Of a DNA stretch of 47,221 nt, positions 1,843 to 27,071 are shown piece after piece. The notes beneath the pieces are model-generated. The model made no database searches and was not told the DNA's origin. It saw only the letters and a program-made list of their open reading frames with translations. Both the position numbers and the translations under genes were made by a program. The stretch comes from a virus. The stretch covers positions 1 to 47,221 of IMG/VR virus record IMGVR_UViG_3300048686_000319. One strand, given 5' to 3'. Within the stretch, counting starts at the first letter, position 1. Each line of letters begins with the position of its first letter.

Positions 1843-2415
1843 ATGGCTACTAACTTAGTTTCAAAAATAGAGGTAAAAAATTATTTAAGTATTACAAGTA
1901 CCAATAAAGATAGTGAAATAGATTTACTTATACCAAAAGTTAGTCAGCTAGTACAAACTTATTGCCGTAAATCATTAGTAGAGTATGCTACAAGTACTCC
2001 CTATGTGCAATATGATGATGGTGGTTTTGATAAGATTGTACTAAAAGAAACTCCAATTAGATCTATTAATAGTTTTTCATGGAGCAGTGACTATGGTGTA
2101 ACATGGACTACTCTTACAGATGGTACAGATTTTATACTACACAATGACTGTATATATCCAATTCCGCAGCCAGGTAAGTGGAAAAACTTATTACGCGGAT
2201 TTAAAATAGAATATCTTGGCGGATATGATCCACTACCAGAAGATTTAAAACTAGCTGTATTAGATCTGGTAGAATATTACATGAAAAATAATAGTTCTGT
2301 ACACGTTAACAGAGATGTTACACCTAATGTAACACAGATAAATTATGTAAGTAGTAGTAATTTTCCAGCACATATTAAGCGTATATTAGACCAGTATATG
2401 TCGGATTATGCATAA
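1843..2415 (+). CDS. gp6-like head-tail connector protein
   Basis: 190 residues. The order SKIEVKNYLSITSTNKDSEI, then LLIPKVSQLVQTYCRKSL, then a C-terminal DLKLAVLDLVEYYMKNN matches the all-helical Phage_gp6 (HK97 gp6-like) connector family that rings the portal. The central 60 residues, with ETPIRSINSFSWSS and YLGGYDPLPEDL, are also usual for this family. ATG at 1843 has AAGGAG at 1832-1837, five bases upstream. The stop overlaps the next ATG by one base (TAATG), suggesting coupled translation. Its place directly after the capsid gene fits the role. Confident at family level. Confidence 0.82.
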   Translation: MATNLVSKIEVKNYLSITSTNKDSEIDLLIPKVSQLVQTYCRKSLVEYATSTPYVQYDDGGFDKIVLKETPIRSINSFSWSSDYGVTWTTLTDGTDFILHNDCIYPIPQPGKWKNLLRGFKIEYLGGYDPLPEDLKLAVLDLVEYYMKNNSSVHVNRDVTPNVTQINYVSSSNFPAHIKRILDQYMSDYA

Positions 2416-3935
2416 TGGCTATAAGTAATTTTACCAATCTAATTAAAAATAAAATATATAAAGACTTTTTTAATAGTTTGGAAAAAACGATTATTACAGA
2501 AAGTACTAATACTTTTAGAGCAGCCGAACAAACCGCACCAAAAACTAGTTTTTATATTACTGCGAATACTTTGCAGGACATGATTAAAACTATTGGTGGC
2601 ATTGATATACCAGATGATGAAGCAAACGAATTACTTAATGATTTACTAGTTCCACTTAAAAATAGCCCAACAGCTCAAGAAATAATGGTTAACGGTAATA
2701 GAGCAGTATTTTATAAAAATATTGGCTGGGGAACTATTACTGAAAAGATTCGTAATATATTATATCAATACCCAGAAGTAGATGCCAAATTATCTTTAGC
2801 TGAAGAACAGTATTTTGAAGCAGAAAAATCAGCTATTACTGAAAAATATAAAAAATTACGTGCTGATGGAAAAGTAGATAGTAAAAAAATAGCTCGAATG
2901 GAGCAAGAAGAATTAGATAAAGCTGAAAAAAGGTCTAAAATAGAAGGTGGACTAGGAAATTATTATAATAAAGGTCATGTAGTATCAATAGCTACTAATT
3001 TAGTTAAAAGATTTAAAAATCAAATTAATAGTGCAGAAAAAGAATTAGGTAACATGAGAGCGGATCTAATTAATGTATTAGATCAATATATAGATAGATT
3101 ACAGTCAGATGATCTTGCAAGCGCAAATTTACCTAATGCTATTAATCAAGCTATGTATGCTAGATATATTCAAGATCCGAATTTTTATTTAGTTGAATTT
3201 CAATTAAAAACTACTAATATAGAAAGTGGAAGACTTAGTAAAGGAATACTAGACGAACTGAGACAAGTATTTGATCCTAGAAATTCACTACAAACAATAA
3301 CATCTATTATTACTAAAAGCCCTAAACTAGGACAAGCACTATTAGTAGAACCTGGCAGTGGTACGCCCCTTGATATGATAATAGAAAATATATTGTCACC
3401 CTTTCCAGGTAGAAAGTCTAAAAAACAAAGAAAAAGTCCGCTAGTACTTATTGGAAAAAATACCTATAAACTTCCTAAAAAGAATAATAAAAGTAAAATA
3501 CAAAAATTAAAACAAACTAGAAATAAGTTAGCAAAAGTTAAGCCTATTCCAGATTCTAAACAATTTATTGTTGATAAGTCCTTAAATCCACCGCTGCCAG
3601 TTATTGTTGATTCTATAGTAAGTTTACAAAATTTATTAAATGTTAGCCTGGTACAGCGTGTAAAACAAAACATGGGTACTGGAGACAGGCGCGACATACT
3701 TAACCTGCGCAGCGGTAGATTCGCTGAAAGCGTTAGAGTAGAACGATTAAGTGAAAGCAGAAATGGAGCAATTACAGCTTTTTATAGTTATATGCGTAAT
3801 CCATATGCCACTTTTAGTGCTGGCGGCAAACAACAAAATCCACCAAGTAGAGACCCTAAACTGCTGATTTCTCGGTCAATTAGAGAGTTGGCCCAAACTA
3901 TAACACAACAGCGGCTAAGAGCGGTATTAGTATGA
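2415..3935 (+). CDS. Putative neck / head-tail completion protein with long coiled-coil insert
   Basis: 506 residues, more than expected for a small completion protein. The C-terminal 90 residues (NMGTGDRRDILNLRSGRFAE, then SVRVERLS and MRNPYATFSAGG) resemble a module seen in phage virion proteins encoded between connector and tail terminator. The middle (about residues 115-225) is Lys/Glu-rich and probably helical, and a basic stretch GRKSKKQRKS near residue 335 is followed by a Lys-rich linker. Starts at an ATG overlapping the connector stop by one base and overlaps the next gene by four (ATGA). Position suggests head closure or tail completion, but the N-terminal 330 residues are not recognised, so the role is inferred mainly from context. 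Confidence 0.55.
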   Translation: MAISNFTNLIKNKIYKDFFNSLEKTIITESTNTFRAAEQTAPKTSFYITANTLQDMIKTIGGIDIPDDEANELLNDLLVPLKNSPTAQEIMVNGNRAVFYKNIGWGTITEKIRNILYQYPEVDAKLSLAEEQYFEAEKSAITEKYKKLRADGKVDSKKIARMEQEELDKAEKRSKIEGGLGNYYNKGHVVSIATNLVKRFKNQINSAEKELGNMRADLINVLDQYIDRLQSDDLASANLPNAINQAMYARYIQDPNFYLVEFQLKTTNIESGRLSKGILDELRQVFDPRNSLQTITSIITKSPKLGQALLVEPGSGTPLDMIIENILSPFPGRKSKKQRKSPLVLIGKNTYKLPKKNNKSKIQKLKQTRNKLAKVKPIPDSKQFIVDKSLNPPLPVIVDSIVSLQNLLNVSLVQRVKQNMGTGDRRDILNLRSGRFAESVRVERLSESRNGAITAFYSYMRNPYATFSAGGKQQNPPSRDPKLLISRSIRELAQTITQQRLRAVLV

Positions 3936-6826: not shown

Positions 6827-6891
6827 TAGTGTAAAATTAGAATATTGCTAGCTAGGAAATATTAGCAGTAAATTTGGCTAAAGGGTTAAAT

Positions 6892-9800
6892 ATGGCTATA
6901 GAAGACATTAATATTCGCTTAAAAATGGCTGCTACTGGTGTTGACCAGCAAGTAGAAAACAGCGAACAGATTGCCAATAATTACGCTAAGGCAAACGCCA
7001 ATGCACAACGATTAAACGCGACTGTAAATGCTCAAGCAGGAGCATCAAAAGCCAGAGCAGCCGCTATGGATAATAGTCGTACTACTGCAGAAATGATGGA
7101 CTATGATAGGGCCGGTGGTATTACTGGCCGTGGTGGTGCTCAAGCACGTGATTTTGCTAATCAAGCTCAAGGTCTTGGTGGTTTAGTTCGTCTATACGCA
7201 ATAACTGCTGCTAATGTATACGCGCTTACAGAAGCTTTTGGTGCCCTTAGCAGAGCTATGGATACTACCAATATGGTAAAGGGCCTAGATACCCTAGGTG
7301 CAGCTAGTGGTCGTGCACTTGGTACACTAAGCAAACAACTAGCACAAGTTAGTGATGGTGCGATTAGTATGCGCGAAGCTATGCAAGCTACTGCTATGAG
7401 CAGTAGCGCTGGTATGACTAATCAGCAAATACTTCGTATGGGTGAAATTGCTAAAAACGCAAGTCTTGCGCTTGGCGTTAGTATGCCAGATGCAATTAAC
7501 AGATTAAGTCGCGGTATTGTTAAACTAGAACCTGAATTATTAGATGAATTAGGTATTTTTACTAAAATTGAGCCCGCTGTTCAAGCATATGCCCTACAAT
7601 TAGGTAAATCAGTATCCAGCTTAACTGATTTTGAGCGTCGTCAGGCATTTGCTAATGCTGTGCTTAAAGAAGGCGAAGATAAATTTAGTGCTATTAATGG
7701 TGAGATAGATAATAACTCATTTGATAAATTAGCTTCTAGTCTTAAAAACGTAGCTCAAACTGGGCTAGAGCTTTTAAACACAGTTTTAGCGCCAATAGCA
7801 GAATTATTAAGTAAAAGTCCTAGCGCATTAGCTGGAGGACTAGTATTACTTGCTGCTACACTAGTTAAACGTGCTGTACCAGCCCTTACACAGATTAGAG
7901 AAAATCTTGATGCGGAACGTAAAGCGGCACAAGCACTTGTAGCTAAGAAAAAAGAAGACACAGTTGCTGCAGGAGCTGCATTGGGGCAGTTAGCTTTTAA
8001 TAAAGTAAAAGCTGACATGGAAGCCAATGCTGAAAGTGAATTACGTATTTTTGAACGTAAAGAAGCTAAGCTCAATGAATTAAAACAGCAGGGCTTAAAT
8101 TATAGCAAACAACTCAATGAGTTGATGAAAAAAGATATTTATGATATAAGTCAAGCAGAAGTAGATTCGGCAAAACAAGCTGCAAAAGATAGATTAAAAG
8201 CCGCAAAAGACGCACATAAAGAACTACAGTTCCTACAAAAGCAAGGATTTACTGTTAGTGCAGAAGATATGGGCAAAGTTAGAAATGAAAGATTGGCTGC
8301 ACAATCTGAGTATGGAGCAGTAACAGCCTTAGATAGAACAGTTAAAGCAGAACAAAACTTTGTCAATGCGCAAAAAACATTAATAGACCAGTATAAGGAA
8401 AAACTACAGCTTACCGACCAATTTAAGAGCTTAGTTGCAGCCGAAGAAAAAATGGTTGTAGCTGCTAAGCGTTCAGAAATACTGGCTAATATGGCCTATA
8501 ACACAAGCCTTATTGGTATACGAGATTCTTATAAATTAATGGTTGCAGAAGCAGAAGCTGCAGGAAATATTGGAAACCTTACAACCCTTAAATTAAAAGG
8601 CATAGCAGTTGGCATAGGTGCTATTATAACAAGTGCATTAGGTGCAATAGGTACAATTATTCAAATAGTAACCGGGCTTATAGCCACTTTTGGATTACTA
8701 GATGCTGCATTAAGTAAAAATAGCAAAGAAACCCAACAATTTAATGACGCCATAGGTAACAGTGAATCTAGTATCAATGCGGCTAGAAAAGCCATAGAGC
8801 TTTATGAAAAGAAAAATGAAGATAGTATAAAAAGTACTGTTGCTATGTCAAATGCTTTTGGGGAGCTAGCAGATAGTTTAGAAATTTCCATCAAAAAATT
8901 TGAAAAGATGGAACAAAGCGCAGGTACTTGGGATAATATAACAAATTTTGTAAAAGGTTTATTTGGATTTGGACGAGAGGACGTTCTCGCCGAATCAATT
9001 AGAAAGCAGCTAGAGAGCGCACTAGACGTTGCTCAAAAATTTGGACAGCGTGGAGAATTAGAACAACAATTAAAACAGTATTTAAACATAGAAAATATCC
9101 TTGACAAAAACGCTGTAGAAAAAGCTCTAAAAGGATTAGATAGTTCCGCTAAAGCAGGCCTACAAGAAATTCTAGGAACATTTAAATCACGTTTTCAAGA
9201 AATAGCAGGTATACTAGAAGGATTCAAAGAAAACTTAGACAAAACATATAAAAGTTTTCAGCAGTTTATGCAAAGTATGGCCCTAAGTGATCCACTAGCA
9301 AAATTATCTGCAAGTTTTGGTCAACTAGCTATTAGTATGACAGAAGTAGCAACAATGTCCGCTACAGATGTAATAAAAGCATTTGAAGAACTAGCTAAAA
9401 GCCCAGAAAAACTATCTATGTTTAGCAAAGGCTTTATAGAAGAATTTTTCAAAATTAAAGACGCTTTTACTATAGAAAAAGAACAGGTGGATGCTTACCA
9501 GTCTGCTATTGATAAAATGAGCAGAAAAGTAACTGAATTTAAGCAAGTACAAGCCGATGCAGTATCTGCTCCTTGGTTAGATAGTACAAAAGCTATGCAA
9601 GGTATGGCTGTTGGGGCTGCAGGAGGTGCTGCGGCAGGCAGCATTGTGCCTGGATTAGGTACAGTAGCAGGTGCAGGCGTAGGCGCAATTATAGGCGGAG
9701 TAATTGGTACTGGTGTTGGATTATTTGAAAAAGTATCTAAAAATATAACTGCTTATTTTACTAAATCAAGTATTGAAACTACTGAAAACACTATTGACGC

Positions 9801-12800
9801 TTATAAACAAATACAAGGTGACTTACAAACAACGTTTAAAGACGTTACAGAGTTGTTTGCTAGAGGGGCAAAAGAAGCACTAGAAAAAGCTTCCGAATTA
9901 AATGCTATAGCAATGCAAAACTCGGCTATTAGAGCCGGAAATACTATCGCTAGCGCATACGCAACTATTTTAACAGGACCCCAAGCCATAGCAGAGCAGG
10001 CACGTATAGCAAAGTCAGAGCAGAGTATTAATATAAGAAACGCAAAAATTGCTGTAGACATGATTGATCAGCAAGATAGTCTAACTAATGCTATTCGTGA
10101 AAATACAGCAGCTGTTGAATTGAATACACAGAGTAGACTGCCAGATAGTCCAGGTAAACAAGAAAGAATTGCCAAGATCGAAAAAGGCAGAGATATTGCC
10201 AACTTAACAGAGCAACTAAAGGGTTTAAAACCAGGAGAAAGAGAGAGGGCACTAGAGGGTGTAGATCCAGCAATTGCTCGTGCAGCTGCTGCCCGAGCAG
10301 CTATACAAGATCAGGCTAAAGATCAAGCGCGCGGTAAACTACGTGAAGAACAGGCTAAAGCTGCTGCTATTGACATAAAAGCAAATATTGAAATTGAAGC
10401 AGCGCAGATTGCACAGAAAAAACAACTACAAGACCTAGAAAATAATATAAAGCAATTAGGCCTACAGCGACTAGATATACAAACTCAAATATTAGGTATT
10501 ACTACACAAGAAACAATTAGTGCTAAGTTTGCAGAACAAGCCGCTGTTCGCACTAAAAATAATGAGTTAGAAATTGAGGATATTATACGTAGACAAAGAG
10601 TTACAGAAGAGAATTTAAGCAAAGCAAAAGATGCAAAACAGAAAAAGAACTATGAAAACGAGCTAGAATTTTTAAAGAAACTTAAAACAAGTGTAGAAGA
10701 TAGACAAAAAGCAGAAGGTAACTTAGAAGAATTACGTAAACGTCAAGAATTATTAAACAAAGAACTAGATACTATACGTAAGCAGTATGAGTTACGCAAG
10801 AGTAATCAAGACGTAATATTTGCTAGAAGTGAAGCAGCTCTAGAAATAGAGCGTGCTAGTGCTACAGCACGCGCTGAAGTTTTAGGTTATGATAAGCAAC
10901 ATACTACAGAAATCTTATATCAACTAGACCTAGAAAGAAATCGTCGTGCAGATGAACGCAGTCGTTTTGATATTACTCAACGTTATAATCAACAATTTGA
11001 AGAAGCTAGCAAAAGACAAGCAGCAGCAGATCAAACAACTGAAGATCTACAAAAAGAAATAGCTAAAGAACAAGAGCGTATACTTAAATTACGCGATAAT
11101 GAATTAGCTAAATTGGATACACAACTTAGTAAGCAAAATGAATTATTGAGAATAGGTAAAGAACAAACACTAGAGCTAGAAAAACAAAGACTGCTGCAAG
11201 ATACGCGCACAAAACAACAAGCTCTAAGCCAGGCCGAATTTGAAGCAACTTCGAATACAACCCAATTTAGTCCTACATATACGGCACAAAGAGCTTTTAG
11301 AAATACTATACAACAGCAAATAACATTTAACCCAGAAATATTAAAACTACAAGATAGCGCCTTAAAACAAATAAGAGAATACGAAACTATTACTAGTAGA
11401 ATTCAAGCCCTGCAGTTGATGGGCGAGGAAGCAACTCAAGAAGACTTAGACCAACAAGCGTTAGCTTTACAAGTAGCCGAAAGAACACAAGCATTATTAG
11501 CAGCAGAAGTACAACATCGTACAGCAATAGCGCAAAAAACTTTAGAAGCTGCTGAATATCAGGCAAAAATTGCTGAAGAAGCTGAGCGTAGTAATCGTGC
11601 AGCTAATGCCTTTAAAGGTACTATGGGCGGTACTGGAGATAAACTTGCAGAATTTATCACTGGTTTAAACAAGTTTATGACCACTAGAGATGCTAATGAG
11701 CGATCATTTTCTAAAGTAGGTGAGGACATTAAAAGTGCAGCCATGGAAGTATCGGCTATAGCTAGTGATATTGATGCACTAAGCATGGGCCCTGATAACG
11801 ATGACGCAATAAAAGCTCTTCAAGACAAGCAAAAACTTTCTATTAAAACCTATGAACGTGGTCTAAAAGAACAAAATAAGCTAACTGAAAAATCCATGTT
11901 GGAGGAATTAGAGCTAGCAGAGAAGCAAGCTGCTAATACTAAAAATTTGTTTAAAGAGAAAACAGCTGCACATAAAGCGTTTTATGTTGTAGAAAAAACT
12001 TTACACGCTATGCGTATGGCAATGGCTGCTATACAAATGGCCACTGATATTAAAGCTGCTATAACAGCTATGACTACTACTAGTACACAAGTAGCTGCAG
12101 ATGGTACTAAAGCAGCCAGCGGTGGAATAGTAGCCGTTATTAATGCTATTAAAGACTTACCATTTCCTTTAAACCTTGCCGCAGGTGCAGCAACAGTAGC
12201 ATTTGTAGCTAGTGTAATTGGTAAAGCCATTGGTGGAAGTGGTTCAAAACCGGCTTTTGTACCTAATGCAGCACAACGTCAAGAGACCCAAGGCACTGCA
12301 ATGGGCTATGATAGTAGTGGTAACAAGGTACAAGTTCGCCGTGGTGTATTTGGTGATGAAACTGCTAAAAGTGAATCTATTGCAAACAGTATAAATATAA
12401 TTAAAGAAAATAGTGTAGATGGACTAACCTACGACAACAAAATGCTTAAGTTTTTAGAGAGTATTGATCGTGGTATAAATCAGAGTGCAAAAAGTCTATA
12501 CACTATTCAAGGGTTACGTAGTGGAAGTATGTTTGGTACTGTTGAAGGAACTCAAAGTGGCGGAGGCCTTCTTGGTACCGGATTCTTAGCTAGTAAAACT
12601 ACTAGAACTATTAGTGATAGTGGTTTATTAATAGAAGGAACTTTCGCACAGTTAGCCAGTGATACTAACAAAGCTGTAATTGATTTCTTTGAACAAGTTA
12701 CAGTTAGCAAGAAAAAATGGTATGGTAAAACCAAAACTTGGGTAGAAACAAACCGCAGGGAAATTGATGATGCAACCAGTGATTTCTTTCGTGACATTTT

Positions 12801-15597
12801 TAGTAATGCTACTGGTTTAATTAAGGAAACAGCTACACAAGCTAAAATTGGTTTAGATACTGTAGATCAAATACTAGGCTCAATGAGACTTGACAACTAC
12901 TTTGTTAGTTTGCGCGGATTAAAAGGTGAAGCATTTCAAAAAGAACTACAAGCAGTTATTAGTAGTATACTCGATGATGCTAGTGAAGCCGTGTTTCAAA
13001 GTTTTACGGCATTTGCTGAGTTCGGCGAAGGTATGCTAGAAACTGTTGTTCGTGTGGTAGATACTAATAAAAAGGTTATTCAAGCTACTAAGAATATGGG
13101 CATAGATTATCAAGCTCAACTTAGTAGGGTAAGAATACCTTTGCAATATTTAGGTGTAACTGTAGGTTCTGGCACTCCTACCCCTGAACAACTACAATCT
13201 TTAAGCTATGCATTTACAGAAAACATGGTTGAAATGGCTGGCGGAATTGAAGACTTTTTAGCACAAACCGACTACTTTATTGAAAATTTCCTTAGTGATG
13301 CTGAAAAATTAGCACCAAAACAAAAAGCTGTTAGAGAAGAATTAACTAGATTAGGATATGCCTCTGTAACTACTACTGAACAGTTTAAACAAATCGTTTT
13401 AGGATTAGATCTAACTACTCAATCTGGTCGTGATACTCGCCAAGCATTAATGAGCATACAAGAAGCTTTTATAGACTTGTATAAAGAAACTGAAGATTTA
13501 CTTAGTGATCTAAAGAAACAAACAGCTGAATTAAATTCAGAATTAAGTTCATCAGATTCAGTACTAAAAAATGTAATAATTAAAACGGCAGAATACGTTG
13601 AAAAATTAAAAGCAAACGGAACAGCAACAGCAGATAATATTAAAGTAATTACTCAGTGGGGTAAAGCTACTGCACTTAAAGAGCTGCGTAATAATTTTAA
13701 AGCTGCCTATGAAGAACGTAAACGAGAGCTAGAAAGTAATATAGATGGCTTGAAAAAATTTAAGAACGCACTAGTAGATCTTAGAAATAGTTTAGATATA
13801 GGTGAATTGTCAACATTAACTCCGCTTGAACAGTATAATAAACTACTTAGTCAGTATGAAATGACATTGACTAATATAAGAAGTAGTGATACTGCTGTTG
13901 CTGATGCTGCTAAACAAGCTTTTCCACAATTAGCTCAACAACTACTTCGTAGTGGCAGAGACTTGTATGCAAGTAGCAATGTATTTACAGAACTATCAGA
14001 TAGAGTTAATACGGATATATCAGATATTCAGAAATATATAGATAATCAGATAAGTGATCAAGAAGCACTACTAAAAGCATTACAAGACGATTTCAAACCT
14101 ATTTTTAAAGATATAGCAGATAATACTCTTACTGCAAGTCAAAAGTTACAGCAAGCATATACATTATGGGAGACATACTCTAATTTAGATCCAGATACCC
14201 TAGCTACTGTAATTGCAACTAATTTAACAAAAATAGATAACCCTACTCTAGCAGTTATAGGAGCTTTTAGAGGAGCAGGTGTAAGTGGTAGTATTGCAGC
14301 AGGGCAACAAGCATTAGCTGAAACAGGCCAAAGCACTATATTTGGTGAAATTTTAAATCAACTAATTGTAGGTTTTGATAAACTAGATAGTAACCGAGAT
14401 GGTTTTGCTAGTAAACAAGAGTTAAAAGATGCGTTTGTAGAAACTGGACTATTAACCGATGATGATATTACAACTTTAATAACAGCATTAGACGCTAATT
14501 TTGATAATACTATAGATGCATTTGAAACCGAGTTAGGTAGCGTAATAGCAAAATTAGGCATTGTAGCATTAGATATACTTGGAGGATTAAGTACAGGATT
14601 TAATGCTATAGATACTAATCTAGATGGTAAAGTAAGTGAACAAGAATTTAAAGCAGCATTTTTTGGAAAAACCAGCGATAATAACTTACAAAGATTGTTT
14701 CAACTATTTGATACAGACAATGATAGTATTATTAGCGCTAACGAGGCTCAGGCAGCTAGTACATATAGTGCTGCACAATTAACTGAAGAAAATAGGAACT
14801 TGCTAAGAATAATTTACAATAATGGACTTTTAGGTATCGAAGCTAACACCAGTAGCTCATTATATAATGATACAGTATTAGCCGAAATATTAGATCGTAT
14901 AGCAACTACTAATGAAAAAATGGCTGAACAAACGTCGTCTGGAGGTCAGGCTAGTAGTGTTAAGGCAGCTGGTGGAAAAAGTAATTTTGAAAAAGTAGCT
15001 GAAGCGGTAGTAGCCGGAGCAGCTGTTACAGTTGGAGCATACGCTGCCTGGACATACTTAATACCCTTTATATTTGGTAGTGATGCTAGAATTAAGAAAA
15101 ATATTAAACATGCAAAAACTTTAAGCAATGGTATAAATCTATACGATTTTAACTATAAAGAGCCTTATAGCTCAATGTATGGTACAAATACAAAAAGGGG
15201 CGTATTAGCCCAAGAAGTAGAGCAAAAATATCCAAAAGCTGTATATGAAGATACTAAAGGCATGAAAATGGTAGACTATGCTGCACTACCAATTAATCCA
15301 AATGAGCTAAAATTTAGAGCTTTAGGCGGACCAGTTAGTAGAAATGAGCCATATATAGTTGGTGAAGTTGGCCCTGAACTATTTGTACCTAATAACAACG
15401 GAACTATTGTGCCTAATAATGACCTTAGCTTTAACAATGAAGAAATTGTTGCTAAATTAGATCAACTAATACAAGCAGTATCAAAAGGTGCTGTATTAAA
15501 TGTACAAGCTACTAAAGAAAATACCGAATGTATTGAACAAGCTATTAGTAATAATACAACTATAGTACGTACCCAAAATCGTATTGGTATTAGATAG
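6892..15597 (+). CDS. Tape measure protein with EF-hands and S74-type chaperone domain
   Basis: 2901 residues from the ATG at 6892, which has AAAGGG at 6880-6885; a TTG six codons upstream is less likely. Sets tail length and probably enters the host envelope during DNA delivery. The N-terminal 270 residues contain the usual tape measure module (RLSRGIVKLEPELLDELGIF). Hydrophobic segments lie at about residues 312-330, 570-606 (IGAIITSALGAIGTIIQIVT) and 904-946 (Gly-zipper-like, GAAGGAAAGSIVPGLG). Long Gln/Lys/Glu-rich coiled coil follows, about 1000-1600. Four EF-hand loops start at residues 2499, 2534, 2574 and 2607, then a hydrophobic segment (2710-2728), an S74-like domain starting GSDARIKKNI (2729-2803) and the common tape measure end GGPVSRNEPYIVGEVGPELF. 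EF-hands and S74 are not usual here. Tail length by about 1.5 angstrom per residue would be near 0.4 micrometre (inference). Confidence 0.9.
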   Translation: MAIEDINIRLKMAATGVDQQVENSEQIANNYAKANANAQRLNATVNAQAGASKARAAAMDNSRTTAEMMDYDRAGGITGRGGAQARDFANQAQGLGGLVRLYAITAANVYALTEAFGALSRAMDTTNMVKGLDTLGAASGRALGTLSKQLAQVSDGAISMREAMQATAMSSSAGMTNQQILRMGEIAKNASLALGVSMPDAINRLSRGIVKLEPELLDELGIFTKIEPAVQAYALQLGKSVSSLTDFERRQAFANAVLKEGEDKFSAINGEIDNNSFDKLASSLKNVAQTGLELLNTVLAPIAELLSKSPSALAGGLVLLAATLVKRAVPALTQIRENLDAERKAAQALVAKKKEDTVAAGAALGQLAFNKVKADMEANAESELRIFERKEAKLNELKQQGLNYSKQLNELMKKDIYDISQAEVDSAKQAAKDRLKAAKDAHKELQFLQKQGFTVSAEDMGKVRNERLAAQSEYGAVTALDRTVKAEQNFVNAQKTLIDQYKEKLQLTDQFKSLVAAEEKMVVAAKRSEILANMAYNTSLIGIRDSYKLMVAEAEAAGNIGNLTTLKLKGIAVGIGAIITSALGAIGTIIQIVTGLIATFGLLDAALSKNSKETQQFNDAIGNSESSINAARKAIELYEKKNEDSIKSTVAMSNAFGELADSLEISIKKFEKMEQSAGTWDNITNFVKGLFGFGREDVLAESIRKQLESALDVAQKFGQRGELEQQLKQYLNIENILDKNAVEKALKGLDSSAKAGLQEILGTFKSRFQEIAGILEGFKENLDKTYKSFQQFMQSMALSDPLAKLSASFGQLAISMTEVATMSATDVIKAFEELAKSPEKLSMFSKGFIEEFFKIKDAFTIEKEQVDAYQSAIDKMSRKVTEFKQVQADAVSAPWLDSTKAMQGMAVGAAGGAAAGSIVPGLGTVAGAGVGAIIGGVIGTGVGLFEKVSKNITAYFTKSSIETTENTIDAYKQIQGDLQTTFKDVTELFARGAKEALEKASELNAIAMQNSAIRAGNTIASAYATILTGPQAIAEQARIAKSEQSINIRNAKIAVDMIDQQDSLTNAIRENTAAVELNTQSRLPDSPGKQERIAKIEKGRDIANLTEQLKGLKPGERERALEGVDPAIARAAAARAAIQDQAKDQARGKLREEQAKAAAIDIKANIEIEAAQIAQKKQLQDLENNIKQLGLQRLDIQTQILGITTQETISAKFAEQAAVRTKNNELEIEDIIRRQRVTEENLSKAKDAKQKKNYENELEFLKKLKTSVEDRQKAEGNLEELRKRQELLNKELDTIRKQYELRKSNQDVIFARSEAALEIERASATARAEVLGYDKQHTTEILYQLDLERNRRADERSRFDITQRYNQQFEEASKRQAAADQTTEDLQKEIAKEQERILKLRDNELAKLDTQLSKQNELLRIGKEQTLELEKQRLLQDTRTKQQALSQAEFEATSNTTQFSPTYTAQRAFRNTIQQQITFNPEILKLQDSALKQIREYETITSRIQALQLMGEEATQEDLDQQALALQVAERTQALLAAEVQHRTAIAQKTLEAAEYQAKIAEEAERSNRAANAFKGTMGGTGDKLAEFITGLNKFMTTRDANERSFSKVGEDIKSAAMEVSAIASDIDALSMGPDNDDAIKALQDKQKLSIKTYERGLKEQNKLTEKSMLEELELAEKQAANTKNLFKEKTAAHKAFYVVEKTLHAMRMAMAAIQMATDIKAAITAMTTTSTQVAADGTKAASGGIVAVINAIKDLPFPLNLAAGAATVAFVASVIGKAIGGSGSKPAFVPNAAQRQETQGTAMGYDSSGNKVQVRRGVFGDETAKSESIANSINIIKENSVDGLTYDNKMLKFLESIDRGINQSAKSLYTIQGLRSGSMFGTVEGTQSGGGLLGTGFLASKTTRTISDSGLLIEGTFAQLASDTNKAVIDFFEQVTVSKKKWYGKTKTWVETNRREIDDATSDFFRDIFSNATGLIKETATQAKIGLDTVDQILGSMRLDNYFVSLRGLKGEAFQKELQAVISSILDDASEAVFQSFTAFAEFGEGMLETVVRVVDTNKKVIQATKNMGIDYQAQLSRVRIPLQYLGVTVGSGTPTPEQLQSLSYAFTENMVEMAGGIEDFLAQTDYFIENFLSDAEKLAPKQKAVREELTRLGYASVTTTEQFKQIVLGLDLTTQSGRDTRQALMSIQEAFIDLYKETEDLLSDLKKQTAELNSELSSSDSVLKNVIIKTAEYVEKLKANGTATADNIKVITQWGKATALKELRNNFKAAYEERKRELESNIDGLKKFKNALVDLRNSLDIGELSTLTPLEQYNKLLSQYEMTLTNIRSSDTAVADAAKQAFPQLAQQLLRSGRDLYASSNVFTELSDRVNTDISDIQKYIDNQISDQEALLKALQDDFKPIFKDIADNTLTASQKLQQAYTLWETYSNLDPDTLATVIATNLTKIDNPTLAVIGAFRGAGVSGSIAAGQQALAETGQSTIFGEILNQLIVGFDKLDSNRDGFASKQELKDAFVETGLLTDDDITTLITALDANFDNTIDAFETELGSVIAKLGIVALDILGGLSTGFNAIDTNLDGKVSEQEFKAAFFGKTSDNNLQRLFQLFDTDNDSIISANEAQAASTYSAAQLTEENRNLLRIIYNNGLLGIEANTSSSLYNDTVLAEILDRIATTNEKMAEQTSSGGQASSVKAAGGKSNFEKVAEAVVAGAAVTVGAYAAWTYLIPFIFGSDARIKKNIKHAKTLSNGINLYDFNYKEPYSSMYGTNTKRGVLAQEVEQKYPKAVYEDTKGMKMVDYAALPINPNELKFRALGGPVSRNEPYIVGEVGPELFVPNNNGTIVPNNDLSFNNEEIVAKLDQLIQAVSKGAVLNVQATKENTECIEQAISNNTTIVRTQNRIGIR
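14386..14745 (+). other. Four EF-hand calcium-binding loops within the tape measure protein
   Basis: Loops begin at 14386 (DSNRDGFASKQE), 14491 (DANFDNTIDAFE), 14611 (DTNLDGKVSEQE) and 14710 (DTDNDSIISANE). Each keeps acidic or Asn residues at loop positions 1, 3 and 5 and Glu at 12; loops 1 and 3 also have Gly at 6. The first two and last two are paired as in calmodulin-like proteins, with helical sequence between. Calcium binding is predicted from the motif only. Confidence 0.8.
15076..15303 (+). other. S74 / endosialidase-type intramolecular chaperone domain in the tape measure protein
   Basis: GSDARIKKNIKHAKTL then INLYDFNYKEP, RGVLAQEVEQKYPKAVYED and MKMVDYAAL match the peptidase S74 (chaperone of endosialidase) pattern. 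In known members this C-terminal domain trimerises fibres and cuts itself off at the Ser of the S-D-x-R-x-K segment; here Ser is residue 2730 and Lys 2735. About 98 residues of tape measure sequence follow it, unlike the usual fibre C-terminus, but cleavage before Ser2730 would be possible. Confidence 0.75.
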
Positions 15598-18707: not shown

Positions 18708-21700
18708 ATGTCACTAATTGTTAATAGCGGGTATAAATCTTTAAATTTATATTTTACAAAACCCAGCGGAGGATTTTTCATAGATGATAATACTACTGCT
18801 GGAGCTCAGCAGTCGTTAGATAATTCTTTGCGTACAGATATAGATAATTTGTATATTTGGGTTAGTGAGACAAATAATTTCGTTGCCAGTGAGCTTAATT
18901 TAGTGTATAAAGGCAACTTTTTAGATTTTATCTCTATTACAAAAATTAATGTAACAACTGATCTAAGTGCACCAGAGTACATAGATTTAATAGATAATAA
19001 GACGTATTATATTAGATATGCTATTACAAGTACTCTTGATCCAAGTCTAATAGTTAAAAGCATCCAACAAGTCGGAACTACTTTAGACATTTCTTTAGAA
19101 ATTCAAGGCTGGTTAACAAGAGATCCTGTTGAGATAGAAACAGATGCTGAGGGGGATCCTCCAACTCCATTTCCAACATTTTACACAGGTACTTTTACAG
19201 TTTATAAATATAGTAGTAATATTACTACTGCTGACTCTGTTCAATATAGTATTGTAGCAAATAGTAGTATTGGAGGAGTTACTGCTGAGATAATAACTAC
19301 TGATGGAGATTCTTCTAAAGGAAGATACAGGATAACAGGAATTTCTGATTTAGTAGGTAATATAACTCTTAGAGCAGTTTATACAGATCCACTAAATAGT
19401 TCCAGAGTTATAACAATTGATAAAATATTAAACGTTAGTAAACGCAGACCTGGAGCTAGTGCCTCTATAGTTGAGTTAAGTGGTAATGGTATAGCTTTTG
19501 TTAAAACTGCTAATAGCGGAGAAACATTACCTTTAACAAGAGAAATTTCAGCAACGGTTACAAATATCCCTTCACCTATTTATACCTGGTATGAAGTAGG
19601 AGTAACAGACACACCAATTACATTTTTATCTGGTCAAACAAACAGTAATAGTCATCCAGGCTTATATACTAGAGATTTGTCTAAATTAAATGAATTAACG
19701 GTTAACAAAACTATATTTAATAATGTAACTAGTCCAGCTACAAAAACTATCAGAGTAGTAGTAACAAGCAACACAAATACAAATATTGAGGTTAGTGATA
19801 CTTTTACTTATTACTATTTACAAGAAGGTAGCGACGCATTAGTTTTAGGTTTAGAAAACGAAAATCAAAGTATATCTTTTACAGGAAACTTACAAAATTC
19901 GATTATATTAAATTCTGCTACACCAATAACTACTAAATTAATATTGGTTAGGGGCAATATCGTTATTAATCCTTTGCTTACAGATCCTACTTCTACTGCT
20001 GCTGATAGTTTAGCAGTTAATAAAATTAGTACGATTGTATTTAGTGCAAGTTCTAGCGATCTGAATGTAACAAATATTACTATTAATCAAACAAGTGGTG
20101 AAATAAGTATACCAAGAAATACAACACTTTTTCCACCAGATAGTTTTCTTAGTGCTGAAATAACTTTTACAGCTACTGTAACTTTTATTAGCGGAAGCGT
20201 TACAACATTAAACAAAAAATTAGTAATTAATGCTGTTTTTGATGGGGGAACGGGAGAAGCTTATTGGTTAGTAAATAATCCTAAAATTTTAATTAAACAA
20301 AAAGATGGTAATTTAAATTTTAGTAGTATTAGTTGGACAGCTAAAAAATCTATTAATGGTACTGTTGCTAATTATACTACTGGTTATTTTAAGGTTTATA
20401 AAGATACTACACTATTAGCCACTCCTGCTAATTATTCCGTATTAAATGGAACAGTTACTGTATCATCATTAGATAAAACAGCCGGATATTATAGATTAGA
20501 ATTATATAGTGATAGCGCGTTTACTAAACTAATAGATCAAGACGATATACAGATATATGAAGAAAGTAATGATGGGGTTGTAGTATTCAATGACAATAAA
20601 GATCACATAATTATTCGTAGCACAAGCAATGATATTACTTATTTAGGCACAGGAACATACTTTTACGTACAACAAGGAGAGAATGTTTTTACTGCTAATA
20701 TTGCTGGAGCAACATATGCTTATAATACTGTACAGAAAAAACTAGCAGTTAGTAAAACAATAACAAGCAAACAATTTTATATAAAATCTATAGTATTTGG
20801 ACCCGGACTGACTGTTACTATACCATCGGGTTGGAATTGGGGTCAAAAATTTACTATAAGAAATAATACAGATTTGATTTGGGAAGATTGGTCTAATATT
20901 ACTCTTGATGACGGAGTAACTCAAGCTTATGTACAATTTGAGATAGCATACTCTAAAGCAGGAACTAACGGTGATATAACTACAGAGATAAGCACTCAAC
21001 GTATTGCTGTAGCAAAAGACTCTTCAACTATTGTAGTAGATATAGATAATGACAATCATCAAATTCCATTCACAACATCAAATACTGGTATTTATAACAA
21101 TAGTGGAACAAAAATTCAGGTATTTGATACAACACAAGAGTTACAGTATGTAAGTACAAATGCTACATTGGTAAAAGGCCAGTGGAAAATAACTCAGGCA
21201 ATAGGCACAGATATAGCTAGTCCAAGTATTCCAACTCAACCAGCATTGATTGGTCTTATAGCACAAAAATATGCAGAAATAGCTGATCATACAGGAATGA
21301 GTGCAAATGCACAAACAGCAAAAATAGAGTATAGAATTAGTGCTAGAACTAATTTAGATGTATTAGTAACTGGAATTATTGCAAGACAAACCTTTGTTAA
21401 AGTACTAAACGCTACAGCTATATATAGGCTTGTCGGAACAACAAGTATACTTAGATTTAATAATGGCACATTTAGTTCCTTAACTGTTAGCGCTCAAAAA
21501 TTAGAAGGTGGAATAAACGAAGTATTTGCTGGATGGTTTAGCTACTGCTTAAAACTTCCAAATGAAACACTTACTCAAGAAGAACCAAGAACTCAAAATT
21601 TAACTATTAGTCTACCACCAAATACTGTTGTTAGTACTGTAATAGTTAAATTATACAGGGAAGAAACAGGTGGTACAGCACTAGATTCAGCTGAGTTACC

Positions 21701-24700
21701 AATTATTCCACAACCACAAGACGGACTTGACGGAAACATAAAGCCTTGGATTGTTAAAACTAGTGACTATACTGCAGAATCAGGTGATAGAATTATTGCC
21801 GATACTAAACTTGCGTATCAAAATAATACTACTTTTACTATTACACTACCTTATGCTCCTGTTGTTGGCACGAGTGTAACTATAACAGATGGTTGGAATT
21901 TTGCACAAAAAAATCTAATAGTAGGTAGAAACAGCTCATTAATTGTAAATGCACAACAAATTGGTGAAGACAGAGACATTAATTTAGATGTTCAAAATAC
22001 TACTTATGAATTTATTTATACTGGCCCAACTCGTGGTTGGGACTTTACGGCTACAGCAGGGCCAAAAGGTGAAGCCGGCAATGATGCCACTTTACTAACT
22101 TTAGAATATACAGATTTATCTTTTATCTACGACAGTTATAATAGTACAGATACATCTACTCCTAGCGCTATTACGTTTACTGCTTCTAAACAAAATATAC
22201 AAGGTACTGTAACTTTTATCGCCAGAGCATACGATGAAAATAATGTAGATATAGGGCCAGTAACACTTACAGGCAGCGGCGATACAAGAACCCTTAGTGC
22301 AACTAATTTTAACACAATTAGTGGCGTAGCCAATAGATTAAATATTCGTTATGTAAAAGTAACAGCTAGTTTAACAGCATTAAATTCTAACGAAGTTTTT
22401 ACTGATACTGTAACAATTAATAGATTAGATAACGGTAGCGATGCTCTAGTTCATCAATTAACTAATGAGAGTCATATTCTAGCTGCTAGTGCAACCGGCG
22501 TTGTTAGTAGTTATTCAGGCGCGTCTACTTTTGGTTATTTATACCTTGGCGCCGTAAACGAAACGATGAATTGGAGTATTACCAAATCCGATAGTACGGG
22601 ACTAACAACTCAATTAATAAAACCAGAAAAGATAAGCACAAGTGGCACTATAAGTAATATCAGCGGGAATGGAACTAGCGGTAGTCCGTGGACGGCAACT
22701 GTTAGTAATATGTCAACTACTACTGGTCTTGTACCAGGCGATATAATCAGCGCACTAGAAAATAATACCGGAAGATTATATGGAGGCAATCCTAGTAGTA
22801 TAACTGTTGAAACTGTTAATCAAGGTACTAAGACTATAACATATAGAGTAATTGGAGGAACTACACCAATTGCAGGAGTAGTAGGCGGCATAGCTAAAGG
22901 TCACAACAGATACCAAGTATCTACTACTAATTTAACGGATAATGTAGCAGCAGCTACAAGCACAATAACAGCATCAAAAGGCTTAACACTATCTGAAAAA
23001 GTATTTTCTATAGCTAAATCTAAAGAGGGTAGTATTTTCTTAATTCTTGATTTAAGCAATGATAATGCTAATGTAGCAACTCTTAATGACGGAACAGGTG
23101 GAAACTATTCTTTAGCTACTACTACGGTAACAGCCCTTGTAGGTAGTGTAAATGTATTACCAACAATATCAAATTTAACTATTACTCCTAGTACCGGAGT
23201 AACTTTTAGTTACACCAAAAATACTGATGCAGCTGTAACTGGACTTAATACAGCAACAGCAGTTCCTATAAGTCCAATTGCTATTAATAATCTTAGTGTT
23301 AATATTACAAATTTAACACCAGATAATGGTAAATTGACTATATCAATTACTTATCTAGGTACAGTATATAGTACTGATTTTACAGTTACAAAAGCTAAGG
23401 TTGGGCCTACTGGAGAACCTGCTTTAATGTATACAATAGAAGCAGATAGTGAAATACAATATGATCCTAATACTGAGACATTTAGTCCCTCAACCGTAGT
23501 AATTAATGCATATAGGACTAGTGGAAATAATATACGCGAAGATTTTACTCAAGCAGGATATGTTATACGTTTTCAATATAGTAGCAATAAAACTACTTGG
23601 ACAACTGTAGGAAGTGATGTAACAGCTAGTAGTAGAACATTAATACCTAATAATTCACTGCCAAAAACAACCAAATTTTTTCAATACTTATTGATAAAAA
23701 CAGATGTTCCAGAAGTAATACTTGATAAAGAAATAGACGTTATTAATTATACAGGAACTAATAGTAGTACGGTTACTATAGATATAGACAATGATACTCA
23801 TCAAATACCTTTTTCAACTGATGGAACAGCAGTTAGTTATGTAGAAAGCGGAACAGTAATACAAGTATTTGATAACACTACAGAACTACAGTATGTTACA
23901 AGTAATAATTTGGCTGCAGGTGAGTGGACTTTTACAGATGTATCAGGCAGAGATATTACACCAAGTTTTAGTATTAATAATATAGCACCTAATTATGGAA
24001 AGCCGCCGGAAATATTTGGGCAAAAATATGCTAAAGTAGCTGATCATAGTGCAATGTTGGCAAATACTGCCAGTGTTACCTATACTATTAAAGCAATTAA
24101 TACAAAAGGTCTATTAGTAGAAAGTATTCGAGATACTCAAACTTTTACTAAAGTTATAAGAACGGCGGTATATAGAATAGTTGGTGTTGGGCCTATTACA
24201 AAAACCAGACTTGGTGTATTTTCAAGTCTTACTGTTAAAGGGCAAAAAATTGAAGCAGGAGTAACATCCGATTTTGGGGTAGTAAGCTCACAATTACTAG
24301 GAGTTAGTGGAGCAGTTGAACTTGGTAAAACTAGTAACAGTTTATTAATTAAACCTCCAGATTGGAGTACAACAACTGGAGTAAAAGTAAGATTATATTC
24401 TGGCAATAACTCAAGCGTGGTATTAGATGAGGCAGAATTAAAAATACTATATGATGGTATAGATGGTGCTACTGTTACTGTAGATGTTTCTAATGATACT
24501 CATGATTTACCATCTGATTCAGATGGAAATGTTATTAATTGGGATAATAGTGGTACAATAATTCAAGTATTTTTAAATGCTACAGAATTACAATATGTTA
24601 CATTTAATGCAGCCGTTGCTCTAACAGCTAATCAGTGGAGAATTAGTAATATTGTAGCTAGTACAGGCTTTACCCCCGCTACAAGACCTGCCGCTATTAG

Positions 24701-27071
24701 TGGACAGCTATATGCAACGATAGGAAATCATAGTGCATTAACGGCTGGAATAGATACTGCAACGGTAAATTATTATGTAGAAGCGCATGCAAATGGACTA
24801 TTAGTAACAGGTTTACTTGGTTCACAAACTTTTACTAAAGTTAGAAGAACAGCGGTATATCGTATTACAAACACTGAAGTAATAAGTGTAACAAAAAATG
24901 GAGCGGTAAATAATCTAACTATTAGTTCTCAAAAAATAGACGGTAATACAATTGAAGATCATTTTGGTTGGATAACTGAACAGTTAGACAGCGGACCAGT
25001 TAGTGCTAGAATTCAACTATCTAATAATAGTGGCTATATAACTACAGCTACAAATACAACTAAAAAAGTAACGATCAGACTATATGCTACTAGCAACGAT
25101 ACTATACTTTTAGATACTGCTGAGATTAAAGTTGTAAATGATGGTATAGATGGAACCCATGCTGCACAAGTAAGTTATAGTAATGGAACTCATTTAGTTC
25201 CTGTAACACCACTGCCTAACTGGTCAGGCAGTGGTGGAGTAATAAAAGTATATGATGGTTCGACAACTCTAACACTAAAAAGCACTAATTTAGTTACAAG
25301 TCCAACTTATCCAACCGAAAAAGGTTACTATTATTTAGCTATTACAAAAGTTAGCGGAGATACACTAACTGTTGGAAGTTTGAGCACTACAAACTTTACA
25401 GACGTAACACTAGCGCAATGGGCAGGTACTTTAACACAACCTACCGTTTATAGAATAACTGCTTATATACGTACAGAAAGGGACTTTCAAGTATCAGTTA
25501 GTACAGATGCAACTTTAGTATATACTCGTGATCCAGTTATTTATAAATTAATAGTTAATCCCCTTGTAGTTAATAAAGCACCAAATGCAGAAGTTTTTTC
25601 ACCGGCTAGTATTAGTGTAAATATGTATAGAACTATTGGGGAAGATACTGTTCTATACTCCACCCCACTAATAAGTATTGATTCTAGTACTGATGGTACT
25701 AACTATGGTGCTCCATCATCATATAATAATGAACATTCGTTAAGTTATACAATACCACAAAATACAAGATCTATAAGAATACGAGCATATAATAGTGCAG
25801 CAATTAATCAAAACTATTTAATAGATAGTCAAATAGTTAGTATTACAATTAGCGGAGCGCAAGGTGTTCAAGGAGTTGGCGGTACTGGTGTCAAAGACGT
25901 TACATTTAATGTTGCCGATGGATATATTAAAAAATTAGCCGATGGAAGTCTCAGCCCATCTAGTATTGCTATTACTGCAACCCCTTCTCCAGACATATCT
26001 AATCCAACCTATGCCTGGACAGTTACAGATCCTGGTAATAATGCTGCTTTAAATCGCTTAACTACTAATGGTCCAGGCAACACAACTACTTTAACCATAG
26101 GCAATACTATTACTGCTATGGTTAGAGTTACCTGTGAAGTAAGAGAAAATGGAACAAGAATATTTGATAAGACTGTTTCATTTATTATACTAACAGATGG
26201 AATTGATGGAAAAACCGGACTTAGAACAGCTACTGGATATATCTACTATAAATCTGAACAAGTAGCAAAACCAGCCGATCCTTCAAGCCAAAATGTTAGT
26301 TATCAGTTTACTACCGGAACATTTAGTGGAGGAGATCTTGCTAATAACGGAAGCTGGAGTAAAGATGCACCTATATTTGATCCAACAAATAGTAGTAATT
26401 ATTGGGTAGCTACTTATACAGCTGTAGAAAATTCACCAGCATCTAATAGTAGTACCGGAAACAATTTAACATTTGGAGTTGCAACAAAAACTATTGGATT
26501 CAGCGGAATTGTTACCTTTAGTAGTTTACAAACTGCAGGTGCAACTATTATCAATGGTGATAATATTACAACTGGTAAAGTAAAAGCAGCCTATATTGCA
26601 ACCGAAGCTTTACAAGTTAAAGATTCTGCTGGTAATGTAGTTTTTACAGCTGGAATAAATGGTGGATTTACTGGTATACCATACGCCAGTATAACTGGTA
26701 GCAAACCTCCAGTAGATGCTACCAATGGTATGACAGCTGCAGAAGCTTTAACTTTAGGTAATAAGCTTAATAAAGCAGCAGCTGATACACTTACTGGAGC
26801 TATTCACGTTTCTACTAATGGGTCTATATGGGTAGGATCTAGTGCTCCTACTTGGAATGGCCAAGCTGCAAATGATCCTAATAATAATACTAGTGGAATT
26901 TTAATTTCTCCAAACGGAATTGTTGGTATCAAAAGTGGAAATCCTCAATTTGTTTTAAAGAACGATGGAGAAGCAATATTTAGAGGAACAATGACTGCTG
27001 GTAAAATTACAGACGGTAGCGGAAAATTTATAATAGATTTAGATCAAAAGTATATACTAATAGAGAGTTAA
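18708..27071 (+). CDS. Giant tail tip protein, gpJ-like C-terminus with repeated beta domains
   Basis: 2787 residues; AAGGAT at 18697-18702 precedes the ATG. The whole chain is beta-rich Ser/Thr/Asn-rich sequence. Three tandem-type domains of about 230 residues recur at residues 774-1009, 1688-1920 and 1921-2149 (VDIDNDNHQIPF, IDIDNDTHQIPF, VDVSNDTHDLPS starts; each ends D-G-[IL]-D-G), with a half copy after. Shorter units starting GSDALV occur twice (near 19830 and 22437). Short collagen-like spacers GPKGEAGND, GPTGEP and GAQGVQGVGGTG sit between domains. The last 190 residues (INGDNITTGKVKAAYIATEA, AIFRGTMTAGKITDGSG) resemble the end of lambda gpJ, the host-specificity fibre. One domain is shared with the hub protein. 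Probably the central tail fibre that contacts the receptor. Confidence 0.72.
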   Translation: MSLIVNSGYKSLNLYFTKPSGGFFIDDNTTAGAQQSLDNSLRTDIDNLYIWVSETNNFVASELNLVYKGNFLDFISITKINVTTDLSAPEYIDLIDNKTYYIRYAITSTLDPSLIVKSIQQVGTTLDISLEIQGWLTRDPVEIETDAEGDPPTPFPTFYTGTFTVYKYSSNITTADSVQYSIVANSSIGGVTAEIITTDGDSSKGRYRITGISDLVGNITLRAVYTDPLNSSRVITIDKILNVSKRRPGASASIVELSGNGIAFVKTANSGETLPLTREISATVTNIPSPIYTWYEVGVTDTPITFLSGQTNSNSHPGLYTRDLSKLNELTVNKTIFNNVTSPATKTIRVVVTSNTNTNIEVSDTFTYYYLQEGSDALVLGLENENQSISFTGNLQNSIILNSATPITTKLILVRGNIVINPLLTDPTSTAADSLAVNKISTIVFSASSSDLNVTNITINQTSGEISIPRNTTLFPPDSFLSAEITFTATVTFISGSVTTLNKKLVINAVFDGGTGEAYWLVNNPKILIKQKDGNLNFSSISWTAKKSINGTVANYTTGYFKVYKDTTLLATPANYSVLNGTVTVSSLDKTAGYYRLELYSDSAFTKLIDQDDIQIYEESNDGVVVFNDNKDHIIIRSTSNDITYLGTGTYFYVQQGENVFTANIAGATYAYNTVQKKLAVSKTITSKQFYIKSIVFGPGLTVTIPSGWNWGQKFTIRNNTDLIWEDWSNITLDDGVTQAYVQFEIAYSKAGTNGDITTEISTQRIAVAKDSSTIVVDIDNDNHQIPFTTSNTGIYNNSGTKIQVFDTTQELQYVSTNATLVKGQWKITQAIGTDIASPSIPTQPALIGLIAQKYAEIADHTGMSANAQTAKIEYRISARTNLDVLVTGIIARQTFVKVLNATAIYRLVGTTSILRFNNGTFSSLTVSAQKLEGGINEVFAGWFSYCLKLPNETLTQEEPRTQNLTISLPPNTVVSTVIVKLYREETGGTALDSAELPIIPQPQDGLDGNIKPWIVKTSDYTAESGDRIIADTKLAYQNNTTFTITLPYAPVVGTSVTITDGWNFAQKNLIVGRNSSLIVNAQQIGEDRDINLDVQNTTYEFIYTGPTRGWDFTATAGPKGEAGNDATLLTLEYTDLSFIYDSYNSTDTSTPSAITFTASKQNIQGTVTFIARAYDENNVDIGPVTLTGSGDTRTLSATNFNTISGVANRLNIRYVKVTASLTALNSNEVFTDTVTINRLDNGSDALVHQLTNESHILAASATGVVSSYSGASTFGYLYLGAVNETMNWSITKSDSTGLTTQLIKPEKISTSGTISNISGNGTSGSPWTATVSNMSTTTGLVPGDIISALENNTGRLYGGNPSSITVETVNQGTKTITYRVIGGTTPIAGVVGGIAKGHNRYQVSTTNLTDNVAAATSTITASKGLTLSEKVFSIAKSKEGSIFLILDLSNDNANVATLNDGTGGNYSLATTTVTALVGSVNVLPTISNLTITPSTGVTFSYTKNTDAAVTGLNTATAVPISPIAINNLSVNITNLTPDNGKLTISITYLGTVYSTDFTVTKAKVGPTGEPALMYTIEADSEIQYDPNTETFSPSTVVINAYRTSGNNIREDFTQAGYVIRFQYSSNKTTWTTVGSDVTASSRTLIPNNSLPKTTKFFQYLLIKTDVPEVILDKEIDVINYTGTNSSTVTIDIDNDTHQIPFSTDGTAVSYVESGTVIQVFDNTTELQYVTSNNLAAGEWTFTDVSGRDITPSFSINNIAPNYGKPPEIFGQKYAKVADHSAMLANTASVTYTIKAINTKGLLVESIRDTQTFTKVIRTAVYRIVGVGPITKTRLGVFSSLTVKGQKIEAGVTSDFGVVSSQLLGVSGAVELGKTSNSLLIKPPDWSTTTGVKVRLYSGNNSSVVLDEAELKILYDGIDGATVTVDVSNDTHDLPSDSDGNVINWDNSGTIIQVFLNATELQYVTFNAAVALTANQWRISNIVASTGFTPATRPAAISGQLYATIGNHSALTAGIDTATVNYYVEAHANGLLVTGLLGSQTFTKVRRTAVYRITNTEVISVTKNGAVNNLTISSQKIDGNTIEDHFGWITEQLDSGPVSARIQLSNNSGYITTATNTTKKVTIRLYATSNDTILLDTAEIKVVNDGIDGTHAAQVSYSNGTHLVPVTPLPNWSGSGGVIKVYDGSTTLTLKSTNLVTSPTYPTEKGYYYLAITKVSGDTLTVGSLSTTNFTDVTLAQWAGTLTQPTVYRITAYIRTERDFQVSVSTDATLVYTRDPVIYKLIVNPLVVNKAPNAEVFSPASISVNMYRTIGEDTVLYSTPLISIDSSTDGTNYGAPSSYNNEHSLSYTIPQNTRSIRIRAYNSAAINQNYLIDSQIVSITISGAQGVQGVGGTGVKDVTFNVADGYIKKLADGSLSPSSIAITATPSPDISNPTYAWTVTDPGNNAALNRLTTNGPGNTTTLTIGNTITAMVRVTCEVRENGTRIFDKTVSFIILTDGIDGKTGLRTATGYIYYKSEQVAKPADPSSQNVSYQFTTGTFSGGDLANNGSWSKDAPIFDPTNSSNYWVATYTAVENSPASNSSTGNNLTFGVATKTIGFSGIVTFSSLQTAGATIINGDNITTGKVKAAYIATEALQVKDSAGNVVFTAGINGGFTGIPYASITGSKPPVDATNGMTAAEALTLGNKLNKAAADTLTGAIHVSTNGSIWVGSSAPTWNGQAANDPNNNTSGILISPNGIVGIKSGNPQFVLKNDGEAIFRGTMTAGKITDGSGKFIIDLDQKYILIES
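21027..25530 (+). repeat. Three-and-a-half copies of a ~230-residue domain in the tip protein
   Basis: Copies at 21027-21734, 23769-24467 and 24468-25154, with a partial copy 25155-25530. Shared landmarks in order: DxxNDxHxxP, [IV]QVF-[LD]-x-[TA]-x-ELQYV, QKYA-like followed by DHS-like, QTFxKV, AxYRxxG, SSLTVxxQK and a closing DGxDG. Copies 2 and 3 are adjacent; copy 1 is separated by about 2 kb of other domains. Protein similarity is clear but DNA similarity is low, so these are old duplications. Confidence 0.75.
25207..25236 (+). repeat. Perfect 11-base inverted repeat within the tip protein gene
   Basis: Arms CACCACTGCCT (25207-25217) and AGGCAGTGGTG (25226-25236) with an 8-base loop. GC-rich compared with its surroundings. 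Would form a stable mRNA hairpin in the half-copy domain. Function unknown. Confidence 0.6.

Follow-up and report, generated by a model that had tools for sequence, protein, structure and literature searches.

Introduction

For decades, the tape measure protein (TMP) has been known to be cleaved C-terminally in the phages T5 and lambda, and the protease is not named in the T5 and lambda papers cited here. The T5 TMP, pb2, is cut at R1127|A1128, which separates its C-terminal part from a hydrophobic stretch that was proposed to form an outer-membrane channel. The resulting C-terminal piece (TMPpb2C) is present in virions, where it occupies the hub cup as a trimer until it is expelled at infection (PMC10038345). 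The title of a 1973 paper cited in PMC10038345 reports that the host is involved in this cut. The lambda TMP, gpH, is cleaved in morphogenesis according to a reference given in PMC10038345. In the tail tip, its C-terminus forms a trimeric helix, and residues close to that end are visible in the virion (PMC10721106). In this work, a short Peptidase_S74 (PF13884) domain was analysed near the end of a TMP encoded by the virus record IMGVR_UViG_3300048686_000319; the whole record of 47,221 bases is referred to as the window. We propose, with a probability of roughly 0.57, that this domain is a built-in processing site at which the TMP cuts itself before its C-terminal piece.

The characterised S74 domains of the endosialidase endoNF and of MyRF consist of a strand ring threaded by the neighbour's chain, a Ser-Lys dyad, a collar of the helices alpha1 and alpha3, and a C-terminal helix alpha4, which drives trimerisation mainly by forming a triple coil (PMC8326128, PMC3742443). 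MyRF is cut between P586 and S587, the latter being equivalent to S911 of endoNF, and the aromatic residues Y615 and Y617 line the cutting hole, such aromatics tuning the cleavage (PMC8326128). The substitutions S587A and K592A each abolish the cleavage of MyRF, and changes in the alpha4 coil, even single ones, stop both trimerisation and cleavage (PMC8326128, PMC3742443).

Results and Discussion

The S74 Domain and Its Position in the Tape Measure Protein

The TMP gene occupies positions 6892-15597 and encodes 2901 aa; residues were counted from the ATG at 6892, and all features described here are on the plus strand. With a score of 33.1 bits, the match clears the curated PF13884 cut-off of 22 and covers all 58 profile positions (E = 6.7e-8), and a six-frame scan of the record placed S74 at 15079-15246 (E = 4.3e-11). 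The domain spans 15079-15288 (aa 2730-2799) and is composed of the SDxRxK signature, the aromatic strand LYDFNYK, the GVLAQEV core and the strand VDYAAL, without the alpha4 helix. An earlier note on this DNA had read an S74 pattern with Ser2730 and Lys2735 in the TMP, and counting from the ATG gave exactly this pair. Ser2730 (15079-15081) is the predicted nucleophile and Lys2735 (15094-15096) the predicted general base, both assigned from their conservation in short S74 copies, and the spacing of 5 between them is that of the catalytic dyad of Peptidase_S74. By homology to MyRF P586|S587 and endoNF S911, the self-cleavage point would lie between Gly2729 and Ser2730 (15078/15079). Within the aromatic strand, DFNY (aa 2752-2755, 15145-15156) contains Phe2753 and Tyr2755, which align with MyRF Y615 and Y617 (alignment to 7dc3). 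The possibility that the S74 match arose by chance or as an assembly artefact was ruled out by its score above the cut-off and by relatives with the same placement in other metagenomes.

The domain is followed by the linker PINPNELKFR (15289-15318), which stands where alpha4 starts in fibres and MyRF. The TMP terminal motif ALGGPVS...YIVGEVGPELFVPN (15319-15417) comes next, so that ALGGPVSRNEPYIVGEVGPELFVPN (GGPV...YIVGE...GPELF) lies ten residues beyond S74, in agreement with the order given in the earlier note. The motif was recognised by its matches in other TMPs, and the same motif occurs right after R1127 of T5. Further downstream, the C-terminal helix NNEEIVAKLDQLIQAVSKGAV (15433-15495) is a candidate trimer coil in the hub cup by analogy to the T5 and lambda TMP C-termini, and AF2 modelled a helix there with moderate confidence (fragment residues 171-186). 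Upstream, a hydrophobic Ala/Gly-rich segment (aa 2701-2729, 14992-15078; Kyte-Doolittle peak of 1.59 in a 19-residue window) stops at the predicted cut. A comparable segment precedes S74 in three of the related TMPs described below (L011, L101 and L102).

Several EF-hand calcium-binding loops (DSNRD, DANFD, DTNLD, DTDND) were noticed in the TMP at 14386-14724, about 110-230 residues before S74, and the relative L002 has a similar loop, FDFDGG. It is possible that these loops sense calcium close to the processing site.

Comparison with T5 and Lambda

The identity of the TMP was established from PHROG matches, a match to T5 pb2 and the gene order. The N-terminal part matched phrog_3779 (E = 1.1e-40) and a region further along matched phrog_7740 (E = 1.1e-22); T5 pb2 showed 31% identity over aa 75-355 of the window TMP (E = 4e-26). 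The genes upstream encode a tail terminator, a major tail protein and two tail assembly chaperones. Judged by sequence and gene position, the product is a T5-like siphophage TMP. It is encoded by a single uninterrupted open reading frame (ORF), for which an in-frame TTG at 6874 is an alternative start that would lengthen the product by 6 aa (2907 aa). Identities of about 31-37% to T5-like phages were obtained for the protease-capsid protein, for the major tail protein and for the TMP in its N-terminal part, and the product of 2415-3935 is a weak match to T5 p143. Because the capsid, the major tail protein and the TMP N-terminus match those of T5-like phages, the comparison with T5 is one of homology, beyond analogy, and on these similarities the phage is a distant relative of T5. 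In its middle, the TMP resembles other TMP kinds and is therefore a mosaic protein.

In the T5 sequence, the R1127 cut directly precedes AEGGMMYPGVSYQMGEHGTEVVTP (AEGG..GEHGTE), the window counterpart of which is ALGGPVSRNEPYIVGEVGPELFVP. Since the T5 cut adjoins the same motif, S74 in the window and in its relatives stands at a known processing position. Thus pb2 and the window TMP share the homologous N-terminal part, the GG..GE motif right after the cut or S74, and the hydrophobic stretch ahead of it, whereas pb2 is without S74 and Pfam found in the window TMP no TMP_C domain, which pb2 has. Lambda gpH resembles the window TMP, as proposed here, in TMP cleavage and in its C-terminal helix; it is not known to have an S74 domain.

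The fate of the T5 piece also bears on what a cut would accomplish. The earlier note had suggested a release of the C-terminal part after tail assembly. Because the T5 piece remains in the tail tip until infection, this release should probably be understood, by analogy, as a separation rather than a loss. We also considered an early self-cleavage that checks TMP oligomer assembly, with the C-terminal piece discarded like a tail-fibre chaperone. Such a role has a precedent, as the endosialidase S74 reports correct trimer folding and then leaves (PMC8326128, PMC3742443). However, the piece to be discarded holds the conserved TMP motif and the terminal helix, the corresponding T5 piece is found in virions (PMC10038345), as are the near-C-terminal residues of lambda gpH (PMC10721106), and we regard early discarding as improbable.

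Recurrence in Other Tape Measure Proteins

IMG/VR scans revealed ten further TMPs with an internal S74 on other metagenomic contigs, which ruled out that the domain is confined to the window TMP. All seven of those scanned with Pfam exceeded the PF13884 cut-off (23-32 bits). They fall on three unrelated backbones: the T5-like phrog_3779 backbone (L101, tested; L002 and L102, assigned by close similarity), phrog_24/TMP_2 (L008, tested; L009 and L010, assigned by near-identity) and phrog_339/TMP_3 (L011-L014). S74 stands right before the C-terminal GG..GE.GPE motif in all TMP carriers, and the linker to the motif is similar in the other TMPs (P-I-P-x-x-L-L-K-F-A). The recurrence on three backbones fits a role tied to the site before the motif.

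In a tree of S74 domains built from only 71 columns, the ten TMP copies, the window included, formed one clade with a support of 95/94. A separate gain of S74 on each backbone was accordingly not favoured. As copies on three unrelated backbones form a single clade, the module has probably moved between tape measures, and a single origin with later spread by recombination would explain this most simply. In bacterial genomes, two weak matches were found (46% identity over about 30 residues). No earlier report of S74 in a tape measure was found in the literature searched, whose coverage leaves out most subscription journals.

It was also considered that the domain is a neutral relic of recombination with an ejection-protein gene, given that short S74 is common and widespread in the ejection proteins of podophages. 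This is made unlikely by the conservation of the S74-linker-GG segment, which is 67% identical between the window TMP and a relative, by the intact motif in all TMP copies and by the single TMP clade that extends across several backbones. A neutral relic is therefore very improbable.

The relative L002 differs in what follows the domain. Its post-S74 segment (10262-12724 of that contig) is about 830 aa long and contains two GG..GE motifs, an insert of about 700 aa, a third motif and a C-terminus nearly like that of the window TMP. The insert has hydrophobic stretches and matched no family except for the TMP-end motifs. If S74 cuts, the C-terminal piece of L002 would be large.

Conservation of the Catalytic Residues

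The Ser, Asp and Lys of SDxRxK were invariant in 125 of 125 non-redundant short S74 copies, with no Thr, Asn or Arg replacing the strict Ser or Lys, and the neighbouring Arg was kept in 103 of 125; the sequences of this set, and of the set of 66 below, are mutually related, hence the counts are not independent. A circular effect of the motif-based search was ruled out by a scan with the post-motif part only, in which the query contained no motif and Ser, Asp and Lys were again present in 66/66 sequences, with Arg in 51/66. The aromatic pair was similarly kept in this motif-free set (Y/F in 66/66, Y in 65/66). Three ORFs that seemingly lacked the motif turned out to represent secondary and incomplete matches at other places in the same proteins, and SDIRAKENI occurs further on in one of them. 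A strict Ser and a strict Lys beside a relaxed Arg are what would be expected of a working dyad, although they do not prove it.

The Short Form of S74

The window domain and the fibre, spike (endoNF CIMCD) and MyRF domains alike exceed the PF13884 cut-off and contain SDxRxK, the aromatic strand and the G[VF].AQEV core. Ser, Lys, Arg, Phe2753/Tyr2755 and the G-V-L-A-Q core are kept in the window. A profile of the short form found, by sequence, MyRF (7dc3, 2.6e-8), a long tail fibre distal subunit (6f45, 3.6e-7) and a neck appendage protein (3gud, 1.9e-4). Unlike the fibre and MyRF domains, the window S74 has a shortened alpha1 and no alpha4 coil, no beta-helix was recognised ahead of it, and it is set inside a TMP before a conserved motif. 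It is thus a short S74 form in which the signature core is kept and the trimer-holding helices are lost, and the normal trimerising fibre-type domain assumed in the earlier note was not borne out. This raises the structural question of whether S74 can function without the coiled coil that characterised members need.

The loss of the trimer helices is the strongest of several arguments against self-cutting. After VDYAAL, the chain continues as VDYAAL-PINPNELKFR-ALGG, and neither the sequence nor AF2 gave an alpha4 helix there; most of alpha1 is also missing, with a 5-residue gap in the alignment to MyRF and a strand instead of a helix in AF2. Both alpha4 and the alpha1 collar are features of the characterised members, and alpha4 lies outside the PF13884 model. 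The monomer model of the domain was confident (pLDDT 95.7, pTM 0.84), and a longer model matched in Foldseek predicted proteins named "intramolecular chaperone auto-processing domain", but neither model matched a solved S74 structure in a Foldseek search of the PDB, an outcome that may reflect the intertwining of S74 protomers, given that the models are of a single chain. The hydrophobic segment before S74 is weak or absent in L002, L008, L012, L013 and L014. The strictness of Ser, Asp and Lys could be partly structural. S74 is rare in TMPs, the tally of about ten contigs of 2.9 million being a lower bound, and the searches used found no S74-bearing TMP in cultured phages. Finally, the cut, the time at which it is made and the later course of both pieces are what we infer, the observations being the homology, the catalytic residues and their invariance, the position and the recurrence on three TMP backbones.

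The main rival is a short S74 that does not cut and serves as a folding or docking module: it would keep the C-termini of the TMP and of podophage ejection proteins soluble, shield the hydrophobic segment or dock to the hub or portal, and its Ser, Asp and Lys would be structural. Such a role is consistent with the loss of both known trimer elements, with the compact and confident monomer model, with the hydrophobic or Gly-rich segments that usually stand ahead of S74, and with most podophage proteins, where S74 is the chain end and a cut would remove little else. On the other hand, the strictness of Ser and Lys in 125 sequences exceeds the usual need of a helix cap or a salt bridge, the cleavage-related aromatics are kept as well, and S74 is positioned at the T5 processing site. 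We consider a module without cleavage rather unlikely, and a built-in self-processing site is preferred.

Proposed Processing of the Tape Measure Protein

According to the preferred self-processing model, the TMP would first assemble as an oligomer, which in T5 and lambda is a trimer. Since S74 is without trimer helices of its own, the TMP and its C-terminal coil would have to provide for trimerisation; they would bring the S74 region together and allow the Ser-Lys dyad to cut its own chain at Gly2729|Ser2730. The N-terminal product (2729 aa, 297 kDa) would fill the tail tube and end in the hydrophobic segment, and the C-terminal product (172 aa, 19.15 kDa) would comprise S74, the GG..GE.GPE motif and the terminal helix. 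By analogy to T5, the small piece may be kept as a hub plug until infection, and the new hydrophobic C-terminus could pass into the host envelope on ejection of the TMP. S74 would in this way do in cis what T5 reportedly does partly via the host.

The interpretation of the earlier note, that S74 offers a processing route for tape measures, was supported in part. It agrees with the homology, the invariant Ser and Lys, the position before the terminal motif, the T5 precedent and the trimeric C-termini of T5 and lambda; the trimer helices of the fibre type are missing. A TMP with its own protease at this site would make the step testable by two point mutations and provide a handle on the timing of and reason for the cut.

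Short S74 in Podophage Ejection Proteins

Short S74 is also the C-terminal end of many podophage-type proteins, about 350-500 aa long, with matches to the DNA-ejection and virion families phrog_4287, phrog_6121 and phrog_598. This ending is very frequent in podophage-type DNA-ejection proteins, usually with a Gly-rich hydrophobic segment ahead (L016-L095), and one scan gave more than 500 candidate relatives. Two ejection-type proteins, L055 and L067, have an internal short S74 with about 650-700 aa beyond it, so that S74 divides these proteins as well. The podophage ejection proteins (phrog_6121 and phrog_4287, e.g., of Salmonella phage 7-11) share with the TMPs the same short domain, the same invariant residues and a carrier that is ejected into the cell. 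In contrast, S74 is usually the protein end in the ejection proteins, while the terminal motif and helix come after it in the TMPs, and the TMP copies form a clade apart from the podophage copies. The proteomics of SU10 are bottom-up data and uninformative on the processing of a related ejection protein.

Tape measures and ejection proteins have in common that both pass from the virion into the host envelope when the DNA is delivered, and one shared module links them. We tentatively suggest, at somewhat less than an even chance, that the short S74 is a mobile self-cutting module for phage-ejected proteins generally, found in several unrelated siphophage TMP kinds and in podophage ejection proteins, where it would replace outside proteases and tie the cut to assembly via the oligomeric state of the carrier, in place of trimer helices within the domain.

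Other Genes of the Record

Several further genes were noticed in the window. One ORF at 3-1766 reads as a prohead protease (S78) together with a major capsid protein, which are annotated as two genes in T5-like phages. The region 18708-27071 encodes a tail-module protein of 2787 aa, for which neither Pfam nor PHROG gave a match at the thresholds used. It is followed at 27073-27774 by an NlpC/P60 tail protein, a separate candidate wall hydrolase, and consequently the TMP end need not carry one, unlike T5 pb2. Very large putative adhesin or fibre proteins are encoded at 35462-43237 and 43540-47221, with DUF5122 propeller repeats and a LamG-like domain, and with collagen repeats and CBM_5_12 modules.

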